Assembly (NCBI RefSeq): GCF_003316695.1
Contig: NZ_PDKB01000005.1
Span: forward strand, 1-64,000
DNA: 64,000 bases
Reading direction: 5' to 3'
From: Aliarcobacter vitoriensis
GTDB taxonomy: Bacteria; Campylobacterota; Campylobacteria; Campylobacterales; Arcobacteraceae
Shown here: one piece after another, positions 19,687 to 56,209 of the stretch
How positions within the stretch are numbered: position 1 is the first letter of the stretch
How the letters are laid out: each line of letters starts with the position of its first letter
Translations under genes and position numbers: made by a program
The notes under the pieces: model-generated
Seen by the model: only the letters and a program-made list of their open reading frames with translations
The model's database searches: none
Told to the model about the DNA's origin: nothing

Positions 19687-19770
19687 GCTAAATTTTACGA
19701 TTTATATTTAAAATTATTATTTTATATAAATCAATTTTATGTGATTCTAACAAGAAATATACTTAATTTT

Positions 19771-19785
19771 GTTACCAAAAGTAAC
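19771..19785. promoter_or_regulatory. Palindrome upstream of the TonB receptor gene
   Basis: GTTAC-CAAAA-GTAAC lies 111 bp before the receptor start in an otherwise AT-rich leader. It could bind a regulator. It is not a clear Fur box, and I found no convincing Fur box in 19700-19895. Confidence 0.3.
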
Positions 19786-19895
19786 TCCAACTAACAAATT
19801 TGAAAATTCTTTTGTAAAAATTGTCCATTTTTTTCATTTAAATCGTCTTACTATATAGAGAAACAAATTCTCAAAATTAATACAAAGGATTTAAG

Positions 19896-22293
19896 ATGAA
19901 AAGAAGAGTTTTCATGTCAGTTGTAACATCTTTGATGTTAGGAAGTTCTTTTGCAAATGCAAAAGATATAAGTTTGCAAGAAGCAGTAGAGAATATAGTA
20001 AAGAAATATAATGTAACATATATTTCAAAATCAAAAGATTTAAAAAATAAGATAGTAGATTCAGAAAAGTTAGGTTTCGGGGGGGGGTACGGTATTAAGT
20101 AATCTAAATAGTGTATTAGAAGAACATAATCTCAAAGCTATACAAGAAAATGATGTGATATATATAATAGAAAATCCCCAATCATCATATAAAAAAGTAG
20201 GTAAAACTTATATCTTAGATGAAGTTTCTGTAAAAGATAATAAAGAAAATAGCTATACAAGAACTCAAGACAACTCTGCAACTGGTATGAATTTATCTTT
20301 AAAAGAAACTCCACAATCAGTTTCAGTTATCACTTCAAAAAGAATGGAAGATCAACAATTAAATAATCTAAATGATGTTCTAAGAAAGATACCTGGCGTT
20401 ACGGTAGATTCACAAGCAAGTAATACAGGTTTTGCTCAAATTTATTCTCGTGGATATGAAATAAAAAATATTCAAATAGATGGAGCAATGAGTTCAAGTA
20501 ACAATGCATATTACAAAGGCAATGAGAGTATGGATAGTACAATTTATGATTCTGTTTCAGTCGTTCGTGGAGCAACTGGACTTTTAACTGGTGCTGGAGA
20601 TCCTAGTGGAAGTATAAATTTAGTACGCAAAAAACCAACAAAAGATTTTCAAGCATCAATTGAAGCACAAACAGGAAGATGGGATAAATATAGAGGTGTA
20701 GTAGATATCGCTGGAGGATTTAATGAAGATGGAAGTATAAGAGGAAGATTTATAGCAGTTCATGATCAAGGTGGATATTTCAATCCCTTACTTGATAAAC
20801 AAAATAGCACTTTATATGGTGTTATAGAAGCTGATTTAGGTGATTCAACTACAATATCAGGTACTTGGGAAAGAGCAGAAGCAGAAAATAATGGTACTTA
20901 TTATGGAACAGAAGCAAGTATATTTTTTATGGATAGTGGATGGGGGAAAGTTGGATTATCAAATTTTGATAGATATACTTGGACAGCAGCAGATTGGACA
21001 AAGGTTGAAACTACTAAAGATACATATACTCTATCTTTAAATCATCATATCAATGACTCTTGGAAAATAGATACAACTTATCATTACAAGGAATATGAAA
21101 ATAAGAGCAAATATGGTATTTGTAGGTTATGGACTAACTATTGTAATGAGTATTATGAGGATATAAGCAAAAATCAGAAAGATAAAGATAAAGCTCATTC
21201 ATTGGATGTAAAACTAAACGGTACTTTTGAGCTATTTGGTCAAACTCATGATTTAGTAGCTGGATTTAATGGGCAAAAAATCAAAAATAATGCTATAACT
21301 CTTAAAAAATCTGATGTCTCATTACAAGATATTAAAATAATTAATAATAAAATTGTAGTTCCTGAACCAACTTGGGGTGGAATATCAAGGGCAAATAATA
21401 CTGAAACACAACAATATGGAGTATTTATTTCAACTAAATTAAATTTTACAGATGATTTATCGGCAATTTTAGGTGGTAGATATAGTGAATGGAAAACTGA
21501 AAAAATAAATAATATTAATAATAAAGTTACAGATGATAGAAAATTTGATAATTTTTTACCATATTTAGCTTTAACTTACGATCTTACGGAAAATATTACA
21601 ACTTATGCTAGTTATACAGAGATATTTAATCCACAAAATTATAAAGATAAAGATGATAAATTTCTTGATCCAGAAACTGGATTTAACTATGAAGTAGGTT
21701 TAAAAGGTGAATGGTTTGATGGAAGATTAAACTCTAGCATTGCACTATTCCAATCAGGAAAAGATAATCTTGCAGTAACAGATTATATCAATGGTAAAGA
21801 TGGTGAATGCCATAGAACTTCAACTGGTGTTTGTGCATCTAAAGCAGAAGATGATACAAAAAACAGAGGTTGGGAGTTTGAAGTTGCAGGAGAAATCACT
21901 CCAAATTGGCAACTACAAGCTAGTTTTTCTTCTTCTAGTTTAAGAAAAAGCAACAAAGAATTAATAAGTAATACTAAAACAGCAAATCTATTTACAACTT
22001 ATAAAGCAACATCTTCATTAACAATAGGTGGTGGTCTTAGTTGGCATGATAAATTTTCAAGTGATAGTATAAAAAACTCTTATATTAATATCGGTCGTGA
22101 AGATTTAGTTGGAGAAGCTGAACAAGATGATTATTATGTGGTTGATTTAATGGCAAACTATGAATTCAATAAAAACCTAAGTTTACTTGTAAATATCAAT
22201 AATGCTTTAAATAAAGAGTATAAAACTAATTTTGAAAAATACGCTTATGGAGAAGAGAGAAATTGGATGGCTACTTTGAAATATAAGTTTTGA
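19896..22293 (+). CDS. TonB-dependent siderophore-type receptor, split by a poly-G frameshift (phase OFF)
   Basis: The first frame (19896-20102) encodes a signal peptide (SVVTSLMLGSSFANA) and the start of an STN domain (DISLQEAVENIVKKYNVTYI), then ends just after nine Gs at a TAA. The other frame continues from the tract (GTVLSNLNSVLEEHNLKAIQ, the rest of STN) through the plug (ETPQSVSVITSKRMEDQQLN) and the beta-barrel to a terminal NWMATLKYKF, where the last Phe fits outer-membrane insertion. An 8- or 11-G tract would join both into one protein of about 799 residues. FpvA/FhuE-like receptors with STN domains import ferric siderophores and signal to sigma factors. No sigma/anti-sigma pair is adjacent. 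Confidence 0.85.
20079..20087 (+). repeat. Nine-G homopolymer tract inside the receptor gene
   Basis: Nine consecutive Gs (TTTC-G9-TACGG). With n Gs the downstream frame is read only if n leaves remainder 2 on division by 3 (8 or 11), so the 9-G state is OFF. Such tracts vary by slipped-strand mispairing in Campylobacterota. Confidence 0.9.
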
Positions 22294-22965: not shown

Positions 22966-24765
22966 ATGGCAAACTTTCTATATAAAAGAAGTGGAACTTA
23001 TTATTTTCACAAAAGAGTATCTTTTGATAACAACTCTTTTCTAATTAGACAATCATTAAAAACTAAATGCTACAATAGTGCGAAAATTTTGGTTAGTTTA
23101 CTTAATTTTCAAATTCATAAAAATCTATTAAAAGGGCATTTAATGACAAAACAAGAGATAGAAGATATAACATATAAATATTTTACTGATGGATTAGAAG
23201 AGTATGAAAAATTAGAAGATTTAAGGCATGAAGCAAATACGACAACTATTAGGGGAACAACTTATGAAGGCAGCACAGAAAAGGCTATCATAAACAAACT
23301 GAATGAGTTTCAAGCTATTAATGAAAAAAGAGATTTTAAAGAAGTTAAAAATATTATAGATAATCAAATAATCCCAAGAAGTGGAATTAATGAAAATATA
23401 ATTGAAGAGTTAAAAAAACACAAAGAGTTCTATTGGAAGATGTTTAAATATGAGATTGAATTATTAAATACTGATTTATCAAGATATTATAGCTACTCTC
23501 CAAAAATGGAACAAGAAACACAACAATCTCAAATATACATAAATGAAGAAAAAAAAGATATTCCAGATTTTTATGAACTTATGGAAGAGATTAAAAGATA
23601 CTATAAAGAAAAAAGAAAATTAAAAGATGAAACAATAAATACATATATAGAAACTTTTGGAATTATTAATGAAGTTTTCCCAAATAAAAAACTAAATGAA
23701 CTAACTTTAAAAGATTGTGAATATTTAGAAAATATAATTGTAAATCTCCCTAAAAATAGAAAAAAAGGCAAACTAACAAGAGATTTGAATATTGAAGAAC
23801 AAACAGAACTAATTAAAGATATTTTAAATCAAAGAAATAATGATATATATTTATTAGAATATGAAAATATACAAGTGATAGAACATGACACCATAAATAA
23901 CTACTTCGACAGGATTAAATTTTTTATTAAATATTGTTCTGAAAAATATGATTTTAAAAATCCAGTGAATCAATTTGTTTTAGAAAGTTTCAGAATAACA
24001 AAAGACCCAAGCATGGATAGATTTTTACTAAGTGATGATGAAATAGTTAAAATATTTAATGAATTCGATTATCTAAATAATAGAATATTATACACATTAA
24101 AAAATGACCCTTTGAAAGTTTTTGGAATATTTCTTACTATGTTCTTAGGATTAAGACCTAGTGAAATAGGGCAATTTATGATTGCTGATTTAAAAACTAC
24201 TAAACATAGTAAAACTGGTGAGTTAATATATTATTTAGAAGTTTCAAAAGAAAATCAAAGTGATAATAAAAGCTTAAATGATGTAAAAAGTAATAAAACA
24301 ATATATGCTAAAAGAAAACTTCCTTTAACGAAACTATTGATTGAAAAATTACGGCTTTTAGATTTTATAAATTATAGAAAGAAAAATAAACACACTTTTA
24401 TTTTTGTGGATGAAGAAAAAGGAAAAGAAACTAAGAATCTCATAAAATCAACCATTAGAAGATGTGAAAGTAGATTTAATGACAAAATCAAAAAAATAGA
24501 TATTGAAGATAAAGAAAAAAAATCTTATTACTCACTAAGACATAGTTTCGCAAATAAAATAAAACATATGCCCGAAACATTAAAAGATAAAAGGGGAGAA
24601 AGTTTAATGGGGCATACACGAAATGACACAGAACTTTTTAATCGATATGGAAACAAATATTTTGAGCCTGATTTTTTAGTGGAAATATTGGAAAAAGTAG
24701 AGTATAAAGGATTAAATGTAATCTTAGATAAAGTGAACTTTTCTATTGGAAAGCTTTTGGAATAG
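22966..24765 (+). CDS. Tyrosine recombinase (island integrase)
   Basis: 599 residues. The N terminus (MANFLYKRSGTYYFHKRVSF) resembles the arm-binding head of DUF6538-type integrases. A long central SAM-like core-binding region follows, then the catalytic domain: MFLGLRPSEIGQF with the first Arg near residue 395, SLRHSFANKI with His-x-x-Arg near 525, LMGHTRND near 548 and the Tyr nucleophile in FNRYGNKY near 560. It lies 112 bp inside the distal att repeat and should integrate the island at ssrA. It is longer than most integrases because of the middle region. Confidence 0.88.
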   Translation: MANFLYKRSGTYYFHKRVSFDNNSFLIRQSLKTKCYNSAKILVSLLNFQIHKNLLKGHLMTKQEIEDITYKYFTDGLEEYEKLEDLRHEANTTTIRGTTYEGSTEKAIINKLNEFQAINEKRDFKEVKNIIDNQIIPRSGINENIIEELKKHKEFYWKMFKYEIELLNTDLSRYYSYSPKMEQETQQSQIYINEEKKDIPDFYELMEEIKRYYKEKRKLKDETINTYIETFGIINEVFPNKKLNELTLKDCEYLENIIVNLPKNRKKGKLTRDLNIEEQTELIKDILNQRNNDIYLLEYENIQVIEHDTINNYFDRIKFFIKYCSEKYDFKNPVNQFVLESFRITKDPSMDRFLLSDDEIVKIFNEFDYLNNRILYTLKNDPLKVFGIFLTMFLGLRPSEIGQFMIADLKTTKHSKTGELIYYLEVSKENQSDNKSLNDVKSNKTIYAKRKLPLTKLLIEKLRLLDFINYRKKNKHTFIFVDEEKGKETKNLIKSTIRRCESRFNDKIKKIDIEDKEKKSYYSLRHSFANKIKHMPETLKDKRGESLMGHTRNDTELFNRYGNKYFEPDFLVEILEKVEYKGLNVILDKVNFSIGKLLE

Positions 24766-51859: not shown

Positions 51860-53623
51860 ATGAGATTTGAAAATAAAGAATTTATACCTTACAAATTCCC
51901 ATATGAACATAATTACAGAAATTATGCCCAATTTGTTATTTCTAATGATGTAGATTTTAGCAAAAATGATTATTATGTATATTTAATATCTAATCCTCTT
52001 AAATTTAATTACCAAAAAACTAATAATAATTATTATGTATTTGTTGCAATATTAGTTCAAAATAAGGAAACAAAAGAATTTTCTATAAAACTGGAAAAAT
52101 TTGATTTTAAATCTATACTTCAATTAAATATTTTTGGAAAGATTAATCCATTGGGAGATGTTTCTTTATTTGAAGATATTGATGATAAGTTCAACAAACT
52201 AATATATGAAACGAAAATAAATATCTCAGATACTACTCAGTTTGAGAAATTTAGTTTAGAACAAGTGGTTGCAAGATTTAATATCCTAAAAAGAGCAGAT
52301 ATTCATAAATTAAATCATTTTAAAGATTTAGAGTTTTATTTGTATCATGTAGATGGTAAAAAAATATTAATTCCCGCAATGGAGATACTTAAATATTTTT
52401 ATTTATTTAATTATACTTACCAAGATGAACCTAAAAGCCATTTTTGCCAAGATATATTAACACCAATTGGCATTTTAAATAGTTTAAATATTAATAAATA
52501 TGATTCATCGAAAAAACACTATGAGTTAGAAATTAATGGAAATTATAGTGAAAATGATATTTATAAGATTTTATTTTTTATTACTAATAAAAAAAGGTTA
52601 CAGCAATATTCAAGTGTAGAAAATATTTATAGAAAAACAAATATTATTAGTGCAATGTTACCTAGAGAAGATTTAAGATTAATGGCTAGAGTTTTTGATT
52701 ACAAAAAAATAGATTTACTTCTAATTTTAAATATTGTAACGCATAATTTTGATTATACAAAAGATTTTCCAGATAATTTTACATGTGAGTATAGACATCC
52801 AAAATCGCAATTTAAAGAAAAAGATGAGAATAAAAGGGATTCATCTAAAGATGTAAAAAAGAAAGCTCGTAAAAATACTAATTTAGAAACAAATGATGAT
52901 TTATATGGAAATAATGAGCTTGAATATGAGGAAGAAACTCTTTCAACCTTCAAATTAAATATAAATTGTGAAAAAGCTTCTGAACCTATAAACTTGAATC
53001 TTACAAAGATTGTTGATAAACAAAAAAAACAACAAGGTGGAAAGAAAAAGAAAGATTATTCGGATTTAAAAGATACCCCTTTAACATCAAAAGAAAATAA
53101 AGGTAGTAGTGATGAAGCAATATCTAAAAAAGAAGATAATAATGAAGAAGAAAGTGATTCAAATAAAAATGATTTAAATTTAATAGAAATTTTAAATCAT
53201 TTAAAAAATAATATAGATTTTAAATTGGTTGATGAAAAAACTTTTAAATTTCCTGAAGTTCTTAATAAAAAAGGTGAAAAAGTTAAAAAGAGTTTTATGT
53301 TTATAGATGAAAAAAATCAAATAAGACGTAAATATTATATTGCTAAATTAAAATATAAAAATAGTAATGATATATATATTATTGAATTACAGCGCAGATT
53401 GAATAAAGAACAAAAATCATTTTTAATCATAAATAAGAATTCTGAAACAATAGATAGTTTGGATAGACAATTTATTTCTAAAGAATTAGTTGATCTAGCA
53501 AAAAATGGAAATAGAATTTGGTTTTCTTCAAATATAGAATTATTAGAAAAGGAATATTTTATATTAATGCATAGAGGTAATGTTAGTTCTTTTGAAGAAA
53601 AATTAATTATGAAATTAAGTTAG
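51860..53623 (+). CDS. TnsE-like protein
   Basis: 587 residues. From memory the layout parallels Tn7 TnsE: an N-terminal half with KKILIPAMEILKYFYLFNYT (compare the IPQLELARSLFLINSYF stretch of TnsE), ISAMLPREDL, an acidic/lysine-rich linker (about residues 310-440) and a C-terminal domain (LIEILNHLKNNIDFKLVDEK, KFPEVLNKKGEK, IYIIELQRR). TnsE directs Tn7 into replicating DNA through the sliding clamp and recessed 3' ends. Here the gene lies in the cargo, opposite in strand to tnsABC-tniQ and next to a helicase gene. No SD is seen; TATAAT at 51849-51854 ends 5 nt before the ATG, so the mRNA may be leaderless. Homology is not verified. Confidence 0.6.
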   Translation: MRFENKEFIPYKFPYEHNYRNYAQFVISNDVDFSKNDYYVYLISNPLKFNYQKTNNNYYVFVAILVQNKETKEFSIKLEKFDFKSILQLNIFGKINPLGDVSLFEDIDDKFNKLIYETKINISDTTQFEKFSLEQVVARFNILKRADIHKLNHFKDLEFYLYHVDGKKILIPAMEILKYFYLFNYTYQDEPKSHFCQDILTPIGILNSLNINKYDSSKKHYELEINGNYSENDIYKILFFITNKKRLQQYSSVENIYRKTNIISAMLPREDLRLMARVFDYKKIDLLLILNIVTHNFDYTKDFPDNFTCEYRHPKSQFKEKDENKRDSSKDVKKKARKNTNLETNDDLYGNNELEYEEETLSTFKLNINCEKASEPINLNLTKIVDKQKKQQGGKKKKDYSDLKDTPLTSKENKGSSDEAISKKEDNNEEESDSNKNDLNLIEILNHLKNNIDFKLVDEKTFKFPEVLNKKGEKVKKSFMFIDEKNQIRRKYYIAKLKYKNSNDIYIIELQRRLNKEQKSFLIINKNSETIDSLDRQFISKELVDLAKNGNRIWFSSNIELLEKEYFILMHRGNVSSFEEKLIMKLS

Positions 53624-53661: not shown

Positions 53662-53670
53662 CCCCCCCCC
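53662..53670 (+). repeat. Nine-C homopolymer tract upstream of the helicase gene
   Basis: ATTTA-C9-TATATGAC lies 61 bp before the helicase ATG and 25 bp before a TATAAT (53696-53701). It is outside any coding frame, since the helicase frame is stopped at 53705-53707. A change in length could alter promoter strength. Confidence 0.75.
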
Positions 53671-53731: not shown

Positions 53732-56209
53732 ATGATTGATATTGAAAAATATTTTAATAAAATTATTAGATATTTTGATTTATATACAAAGAAAGATATA
53801 GATAAATTGGATTTAGAACATCAAAATGAAAGACAAGATTTGAAATTGGTGTGTAACAATAAAATACAAGAAATTAAAACATCTTATAATAATCAATTAA
53901 AAGAAATTGGAATAGATTATAACAATAAACTAGCAAAAGTAGAATCAGTATATAAAAATAAATTAGATGAGACTATAATATTTTATGAAAATGAATTGTG
54001 TATAAATAATTTAGAACGTATAAAATTTCAAGAAATAATAAAAGAGAATGAAAAGGCTATAAATAAATTTAGTTTAAATATGCCTATATTACAATTTATT
54101 GAATCATCACCAGAAATAGCTAAAAATCTTTATACAATTGAGTTCTTTGTAGATGATGAAGAAATTAAAGAATTCATTCTGTCAAAAAAACTTGGAAATC
54201 CAACTCCAGAGCAATGGGAAGTGATTTTATGTAAAAATAGTACACAGCTTGTTGCCGCAGCTGCTGGTTCTGGAAAGTCTACTACAATGCTTTTGAGAAT
54301 TTTAGTTCTTATTAAATATGCCAATGTAAATTCAAATGAAATAGTAGTGTTTTCTTTTACAAAAAAATCTTGTGAAGAACTTCGAGGTAAACTTAAAGAA
54401 CATGTTAAAAAAGCAGAATTAAAAATTGATGAATTATCTATTGAGAGAATGATTAGAACATTTCATTCTAAAGTTTATGAAGTAGCAAAAAAATCAGGCA
54501 TTTTAGGTTCATATAAATTATTTGAATTTATTAAAGATAGTGATGAAGAAGATACTGAGGATGAATCAGATATTGAAGTTGACAATATATTTAATAATAG
54601 TAAGTTGAGTTTAGTACAAAAAAATATTTTAAAAGAGGTTTACACAAAAGCTTATCATGAAGATAGTAATTTTAAAAAATTGATCCATGAAATATTTTTG
54701 AAGAGTAATTTAAATAAAACTTCATTAAAAATAGAAAATCCAAGCATGGACTATATTCAATTTTGTTTATCTTTTTCAAAAGCATTATCTCAAACCTTTG
54801 AAAAAATTTATCAAACAACTTATGATACAAGTATTAAGAAAAAGGCTTTTTCTAAATATATAGATAATGCATTTTTTTATTATCATATCTATTTAAAAAA
54901 TTTAGATATATATCTAATCTTTAGTCCTGATAAAGATATTTTAAATACATCAGAGTTTGAAGATGTCAAAGTAGAGAATAGTAAAAATGGGAAATTATAT
55001 GAATTAAAATATGCTATAAATTCACATAAAAAAGTTTTTGGTTATTGTGATTTGAGAGCTATTTTTGTAGAAAGTCAACAACAGCTAAATGATATACTTT
55101 TAGTAGATAAAATATATGATAAGAAAGAAGATGATGATATTCCTATTCTTTTTGATATTAAGGTGAGTTCTTTATTCCGAACAAGTTTAATTTATGAATT
55201 TTTCTATACACTTATAAGTTTTATTGAAAGTACAGGTATTTATTTTGAACAATTAGAACAACTTAAGGATAAAATATTAGAAGATAATACTTTAGATAAA
55301 GAGCATCAAAATATATTCGTAGCTTTAATGATTTATTGGAAGTTTATGAAACAATATTTTATCGAAAATAAAATATATCAGTTTTCAAATTTGCTAAAAT
55401 ATCTTTCTGAAAATAATATTCAATATTTTGAATTCGCATCTGCTTCTCTTCGAAGTATGAAAAATATATTAATAGATGAGTTCCAAGATATATCACCAGA
55501 GATTGTATCATTTATTCGTGGTGCTCAAAATTATTTATATACACAAGAACAAAAAATATCTTTGATGTGTATTGGAGATGATTGGCAAAGTATTTATGGA
55601 TGGAGAGGTAGTACTCCATCATATTTGATTGATTTTAATAAACACTTTAATTGTGAACATGATGAGCTTGTTATGTCGTATAATTTTAGGTCTTCTCAGG
55701 ATATCCTTTCAAAAGCAGAACTGATTCTTAATAAAACAAAAATGAAGTTAGATAAAACTGTAATTGCACATAATGATTATCGTGATAGTGAGTTTATAAA
55801 AGTATCACTTAACAATAATCCCAATAATTTAGATTATAAAAAAATAATTGAAGATATTAATAAAAGAATTAATGAAATTAGAACAGAATGGTCTGATGCA
55901 ATTATTTATATTTTATGTAGACAAAATCAAAAAAAATTAAATGGAATAAAAGGTGCAGATAAAATTATGACATATCACTCTTCAAAAGGTTTAGAAGCTG
56001 ATATATGTTTTTTAGTAGGTGATTGTGACTATAAAGAAAAAGATATTATTCGTAATTTAATATATCGTCTTGCTAAATATGAACAAACATATGATGAAAG
56101 CCAACGAGATGAATCATTAAGACTAGCCTATGTAGCTGCAACAAGAGCAAAAAGGAAAGCATATTGGTACGGACTAGAACAATCAGAGTTTAGTCATATA
56201 TTTCAATAG
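53732..56209 (+). CDS. UvrD/Rep-family SF1 helicase with N-terminal coiled coil
   Basis: 825 residues. Residues about 20-115 are a coiled coil (LKLVCNNKIQEIKTSYNNQL). The SF1A motifs follow: Walker A AAAAGSGKSTTMLL near 177, VVFSFTKKSCEELRGKL, DEFQD near 582, GDDWQSIYGWRGS, SYNFRSSQDI, TYHSSKGLEADICFLVG and YVAATRAKRKAYW. The stretch between motifs Ia and II is about 350 residues, long for this family. It unwinds DNA with 3'-5' polarity by family rule. It follows the TnsE-like gene by 108 bp and converges on the tns genes, overlapping the last by 7 bp. Confidence 0.85.
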   Translation: MIDIEKYFNKIIRYFDLYTKKDIDKLDLEHQNERQDLKLVCNNKIQEIKTSYNNQLKEIGIDYNNKLAKVESVYKNKLDETIIFYENELCINNLERIKFQEIIKENEKAINKFSLNMPILQFIESSPEIAKNLYTIEFFVDDEEIKEFILSKKLGNPTPEQWEVILCKNSTQLVAAAAGSGKSTTMLLRILVLIKYANVNSNEIVVFSFTKKSCEELRGKLKEHVKKAELKIDELSIERMIRTFHSKVYEVAKKSGILGSYKLFEFIKDSDEEDTEDESDIEVDNIFNNSKLSLVQKNILKEVYTKAYHEDSNFKKLIHEIFLKSNLNKTSLKIENPSMDYIQFCLSFSKALSQTFEKIYQTTYDTSIKKKAFSKYIDNAFFYYHIYLKNLDIYLIFSPDKDILNTSEFEDVKVENSKNGKLYELKYAINSHKKVFGYCDLRAIFVESQQQLNDILLVDKIYDKKEDDDIPILFDIKVSSLFRTSLIYEFFYTLISFIESTGIYFEQLEQLKDKILEDNTLDKEHQNIFVALMIYWKFMKQYFIENKIYQFSNLLKYLSENNIQYFEFASASLRSMKNILIDEFQDISPEIVSFIRGAQNYLYTQEQKISLMCIGDDWQSIYGWRGSTPSYLIDFNKHFNCEHDELVMSYNFRSSQDILSKAELILNKTKMKLDKTVIAHNDYRDSEFIKVSLNNNPNNLDYKKIIEDINKRINEIRTEWSDAIIYILCRQNQKKLNGIKGADKIMTYHSSKGLEADICFLVGDCDYKEKDIIRNLIYRLAKYEQTYDESQRDESLRLAYVAATRAKRKAYWYGLEQSEFSHIFQ

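Follow-up and report, generated by a model that had tools for sequence, protein, structure and literature searches.

The window, that is the whole stretch of 64,000 nt analysed here, comes from a 2.43 Mb draft genome of 66 contigs (G000; the gene under study is on contig C55) and carries one member of what is probably a lineage-specific family of siderophore-type TonB-dependent receptors, in which at least 26 copies of a ~480-bp cassette have been spread by recombination and the genes are phase variable by slippage at a tract of nine Gs (G9). Slipped-strand replication at the tract would shift the reading frame, leaving each receptor independently ON or OFF. In this assembly the commonest length, G9, together with the flanking frame sets nearly all of the receptors OFF; by default most would stay silent, any one receptor being deployed by a minority of cells. 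Recombination between paralogs has spread and homogenised the cassette, joining it to different plug-barrels near the TonB box, as is shown by mosaic haplotypes and by the unrelated front ends of counterpart barrels, and a second class of genes would switch by a tract in the leader instead. Candidate benefits could be varied siderophore uptake and the evasion of phages or bacteriocins.

Results

The receptor gene in the window

According to the first-pass annotation, the tract throws a TonB-dependent siderophore receptor out of frame in the window while the frame downstream is intact, and both parts hold (Table 1). The tract starts 183 nt after the ATG, and no second disabling mutation was seen in the gene's own sequence. 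The arithmetic, by which eight or eleven Gs would give an in-frame product of ~799 residues, was reproduced by computation.

Table 1. Features of the receptor gene and its front cassette, in positions of the window.
Feature	Position	Strand	Basis
Shared front cassette (promoter, leader, STN-like domain with tract, TonB box)	19759..20247 (approximate limits)	+	Identity profile of 18 gene copies
Palindrome GTTACCAAAAGTAAC, at the cassette's upstream edge	19771..19785	.	Sequence
Candidate ECF-sigma-type promoter GTCC...CGTCTTACTA	19823..19853	+	Pattern count (26 in G000, 3 in G014, 0 in 29 other genus genomes)
Frame-0 reading from ATG 19896: 68 codons covering the signal peptide and the first portion of the STN-like domain, up to the stop (TAA 20100-20102)	19896..20102	+	Translation
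G9 tract, proposed switch	20079..20087	+	Sequence, tract counts
Downstream frame: remaining STN-like domain, TonB box, plug and barrel; 734 codons, intact to TGA 22291-22293, C-terminal LKYKF	20089..22293	+	Reading frame and domain models
TonB-box-like segment YILDEVSV; front ends have been joined to other barrels close to it	20209..20232	+	Position; breakpoint region from identity profiles

The identification as a siderophore-type receptor is supported by family models. The gene scores 308.1 bits with the TonB-siderophore model TIGR01783 (NCBIfam cut-off 223.5), and its plug (74 bits) and 22-strand barrel (175 bits) both exceed the Pfam cut-offs. Siderophore transport is predicted from these families, and among solved structures the closest in sequence are those of the ferripyoverdine, alcaligin and FhuE receptors. 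None of the substrate equivalog models was reached by the window gene, FauA and FhuE scoring high but below their cut-offs, and every haem or haemoglobin model stayed below its own.

The placement of the tract in an STN domain can be kept in part. The Pfam STN model, which passes in three of three FecIR-linked receptors tested in G000, matched neither the pieces of the window gene nor its in-frame homolog in the sister species, but a profile-profile comparison of six tract-family front ends with six FecIR-linked front ends of G000 gave a match (65 columns, 96.2%, E 2.5e-9), and the domain is here named STN-like. At E 1e-8 its profile matches 4 of 104 family genomes (G000, G014, G003 and G085). 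The copy in G003 is an intact one that lacks the tract, so that the domain may predate the tract.

G-tracts in the genome and the genus

A run of eight Gs matches the window at four places, which make up two tracts, against a mean of 0.03 in shuffled sequences. The whole of G000 has 33 tracts of at least eight, where ~0.5 would be expected from the dinucleotide frequencies of the window; 30 are G9, two G10 and one G8, and there are four more of seven. By their flanks, 22 of the 33 (class A) occupy one homologous place in the STN-like domain of a single receptor family. Another eight (class B) are in the leaders of other receptors, which places 30 in receptor genes and three elsewhere. The count in the other 30 genomes of the genus ranges from none to six (it is zero in 13 of all 31), and the tract together with its flanks was present in one of 104 family genomes, G000 itself.

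The window gene has several properties of an SSR contingency locus: the mononucleotide tract lies within the reading frame and is long beyond chance, its length sets the frame of an otherwise intact gene, and homologs differ in length with both states seen, between species and paralogs only.

Two of the G000 tracts outside receptor genes are L063 (G8, C2:89180-89187) and L092 (G9, C65:19537-19545), the latter being followed by an open frame of 242 codons. Elsewhere in the genus, G029, G023, G007 and G022 have two to six tracts each, of lengths up to 11; three of those in G007 were fetched, and none lies within any receptor read here.

A shared front cassette

The first-pass annotation had dealt with one switching gene. 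That gene is real, but it is one of a family in which a single exchangeable cassette is present in at least 26 copies. Among 18 genes that have it, identity is high from ~320 bp before to ~160 bp after the tract and near background outside. The ~480 bp comprise a palindrome, a promoter-like element, a signal peptide, the STN-like domain and a TonB-box-like segment; these names are our assumption, as are the ECF label of the promoter and the TonB-box label of YILDEVSV. The promoter pattern occurs in G000 and its sister species G014 only among the 31 genomes of the genus (Table 1). Its copies in G000 correspond to 18 complete genes and eight cut by contig ends, with breaks in the assembly falling at the cassette.

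Every one of the 18 complete class A genes has the same 183 nt between ATG and tract, and all are out of frame (OFF) in this assembly, 17 at G9 and one (L065) at G10; tract length and register are identical in 17 of the 18. Each keeps a downstream frame of 707-735 codons without a second lesion. Two copies at contig ends, L069 and L081, are also out of frame but in a different register, with one additional base ahead of the tract.

Among the class B genes, L070 (762 aa) and L084 are in frame at G9, and L061, L073, L082 and L085 are out of frame. L077 has a stop 147 codons past the tract, and in L088 (G10; C63:110175-110184, minus strand) the class B leader is not followed directly by a receptor frame and seems to have been orphaned. 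The counterparts of L073 and L084 in G014 are without a tract, and tracts therefore come and go.

Carriage of the cassette as plasmid cargo was considered and ruled against, as its DNA had no match in 72,556 plasmid records; the receptor protein has only distant matches in that collection (<60% identity). When other carriers were sought in genome contigs, in which the genome itself is possibly absent, the peptide pattern was found in ten stretches, none of them confirmed, and a second scan gave no stretch. Upstream of the window gene is what we take to be a groEL-like gene, and behind the receptor there is presumably a short helix-hairpin-helix-like ORF and then an integrase-like one (22966-24765), which had no match in the plasmid collection.

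A repeated 3' element, a common sequence around ggtttcaaag, was seen in 8 of 21 downstream flanks inspected (behind L062, L072, L080, L067, L076, L090, L091 and L093).

Recombination and exchange of front ends

The cassette contains three two-state blocks, for which the 18 genes between them show all eight combinations; of 4005 informative site pairs, 2063 have all four gametes. None of 1000 permutations made neighbouring sites as compatible as they are (0.325 vs 0.514), which is what recombination predicts. Cassette relatedness follows barrel relatedness only weakly (Mantel r 0.13, p 0.06).

The barrels of L062, L071, L065 and L068 have counterparts 79-88% identical in G003, G012, G013 or G014, these being assigned by identity, with synteny looked at for one locus only. 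For seven of eight counterpart pairs, identity is 0.15-0.4 in the 40 residues after the tract, 0.55-0.85 in the next 20 (the TonB box) and 0.8-1.0 in the 20 that follow. On these profiles, front ends and barrels have evidently been re-paired near the TonB box, the counterpart barrels bearing unrelated front ends. In the eighth pair (L071 with L205 of G003) the counterpart has the same front-end type, without the tract. Long recent conversions of barrels (at least 120 bp at 95%) were found in no pair among 38 sequences; the longest exact run shared by barrels is 92 bp for assigned genes and 127 bp for two contig starts.

There are eight FecR matches in G000, all on contigs other than C55 and seven of them in FecI-FecR pairs; no such pair was found beside the window gene. 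Each of the seven has its best partner in G014, one to one (65-81% identity). Six are near a tract-less receptor, and the seventh, at the end of contig C2, is beside a cassette copy. This last pair had suggested a FecI/FecR dedicated to the tract family, an idea that was dropped because its G014 counterpart serves a tract-less receptor with a native front end and the pairs match seven to seven. At this locus the FecIR region of G000 (84% DNA identity to G014) runs into the tract cassette at the C2 end. Its downstream flank (93%) is found at the end of contig C5, where it follows a receptor truncated at the tract; from these flanks we infer that the two ends join. The G000 and G014 barrels at this locus are not counterparts (57%), and barrels have therefore been exchanged too. 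By eye, the promoters of some FecIR-linked receptors look similar to that of the cassette.

More tentatively, it is possible that the silent receptors store plug-barrels and that recombination near the TonB box moves these between cassette and FecIR-controlled loci, which would rewire ligand-sigma factor sensing and amount to an antigenic-variation-like system for nutrient receptors. Consistent with this, the barrel of the FecIR-linked L179 in G014 matches that of the silent L062 in G000 (84%), and L155, at the orthologous FecIR locus of G000, keeps an L179-type front end (69%) and is not among the three best barrel matches of L179. Within G000, silent and FecIR-linked barrels that are 77-79% identical overall also have stretches of 92 and 83 bp in common without a mismatch, where ~24-26 bp would be expected.

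Selection and probable switching

Selection rather than decay had been proposed for the window gene, and the family as a whole argues the same, all 18 complete cassette genes having kept their downstream frame. In nine comparisons of silent genes with counterparts in other genomes, one of which uses a G014 copy that is itself out of frame (438k, see below), dN/dS is 0.145-0.291, similar to the 0.167-0.235 of four control comparisons among intact counterparts, although two of the nine values (L065 and L068) exceed the control range. Nine paralog pairs inside G000 give 0.26-0.53. Selection on an intact yet out-of-frame receptor is well supported.

Both states of the proposed switch are seen between species. 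L070, in frame at G9, is 88% identical over 515 aa to L163, its counterpart in G014, which is out of frame at G8. One class A copy in G014 is in frame at G10, with a product of 785 aa; another (1461k) is out of frame at G8 and its barrel is further damaged. The third (438k, C1:437756-438113) is out of frame with its barrel frame open, has its tract interrupted by an A and is probably frozen OFF. Comparison of genes and species, with one draft genome per species, makes phase variation the best reading, as the first-pass annotation had it; its further element, reversible switching within one strain, is a step that we infer.

Loss of mismatch repair was considered as a cause and rejected, as G000 is not set apart from its relatives: MutS was found in 31 of 31 genus genomes, and the MutL_C and DNA_mis_repair models matched none of the 31, each of them matching 11 of 14 control genomes. 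Mismatch repair in the genus may be unusual, or its MutL may be too divergent for the models. With MutS present, mismatch repair may dampen slippage.

Uniform tract length and alternative explanations

The 33 tracts of G000 are tighter around G9 than those of Campylobacter, with 30 at this length (binomial P ~2e-6 against 52%, in a test that assumes an independence which gene conversion between cassettes breaks). According to the available text of two reports, a length of 9 accounts for 53% of Campylobacter poly-G/C tracts (PMC6321876), and G10 was commoner in one set of C. jejuni colony measurements (PMC4965091). We read G9 as a preferred length that was homogenised by recombination, with the flanking frame making most genes OFF by default. 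A fixed slippage signal or an effect of the assembly would account for its uniformity as well.

The serious rival is programmed recoding, in which G9 would be a fixed signal at which transcriptional slippage or ribosomal frameshifting yields some full-length receptor from unchanged DNA. This would account for 30 of 33 tracts being G9, for the one length and register in 17 of 18 complete cassette genes and for a purifying selection similar to that on intact counterparts. It is weakened by loci that differ in register or length, namely L065 at G10, L069 and L081 with their extra base, L070 and L084 in frame at G9 and the G014 copy in frame at G10, and we consider it unlikely. Slippage during elongation is moreover usual on A/T runs rather than on G runs.

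That the true lengths vary or are in frame, and that G9 is what the assembly reports, is quite unlikely. The draft is indeed broken at the cassette, contigs C12 and C66 beginning inside the tract, but lengths of 7, 8 and 10 are reported as well, two receptors are in frame at G9, and the single-contig G014 genome has the same tract family at lengths 8 and 10; the tracts, cassette and frames exist regardless. A family of decaying pseudogenes is highly improbable. Some members are damaged (the broken barrel of 1461k and the interrupted, out-of-frame tract of 438k in G014, the early stop of L077 and L088 with its leader only), but none of the 18 complete cassette genes has a second lesion downstream, and dN/dS is similar to that among intact counterparts. 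Slippage at G9 in an exchangeable cassette remains our preferred explanation.

Relation to known systems

Phase-variable iron receptors are already known as single genes or small sets, going by the parts available of two reports (PMC3786947, PMC2651432). The closest known system is hgp of Haemophilus, with one to four genes: the available text on H. influenzae describes one to four haemoglobin receptor genes per genome with CCAA repeats (PMC2651432). The likeness lies in related iron or haem receptor genes that each have a repeat in the coding sequence, and recombination between paralogs has been postulated for hgp in the same text. The repeats there are tetranucleotides, whereas here at least 26 cassette copies have a mononucleotide tract and an STN-like domain. 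The window gene itself falls outside hgp, as its repeat is poly-G and it passes the siderophore model and not the haem or haemoglobin models.

HmbR and HpuAB of Neisseria are likewise outer-membrane iron receptors, phase variable through poly-G tracts within the reading frame (PMC3786947, from the part available), but are two separate haemoglobin receptors and not a large family with a common exchangeable front cassette. The poly-G phasome of Campylobacter resembles the present set in having tracts of around 9 within reading frames, tens per genome (PMC6321876 and PMC4965091, as far as available). Recombination is named there as one way for a tract to reach a new gene, and is one of four origins proposed for the phase-variable loci (available text of PMC6321876). 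The words TonB and siderophore are absent from the main text of PMC6321876, however, whereas here 30 of 33 tracts are in receptor genes. Invertible regions near SusC/SusD of Bacteroidales also vary outer-membrane transporters, but by DNA inversion rather than a homopolymer tract (available part of PMC10939037). With FecIRA the family shares the STN-like domain ahead of the plug and an ECF-like promoter, and G000 has its seven FecI-FecR pairs; the window gene is however without an adjacent pair, and the seven, one to one with those of G014, include none shown to be dedicated to the tract family.

A large cassette-borne family of phase-variable TonB-dependent receptors was not among the literature matches listed, in which subscription journals are thinly covered. 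If the proposal is right, this is a large phase-variable set of nutrient receptors whose switch has spread as a cassette by recombination, and iron sources, phages or bacteriocins are predicted to shift receptor repertoires within clonal populations. The available text on Arcobacter butzleri RM4018 reports it to be without G:C tracts (PMC2147049), a statement that would need qualifying if G000 belongs to that family, as we take it to.

The second tract of the window, a G9 on the minus strand (53662-53670), is located between ORFs 51860-53623 and 53732-56209. The latter presumably encodes a UvrD-type helicase, and a promoter rather than a frame could be varied here.
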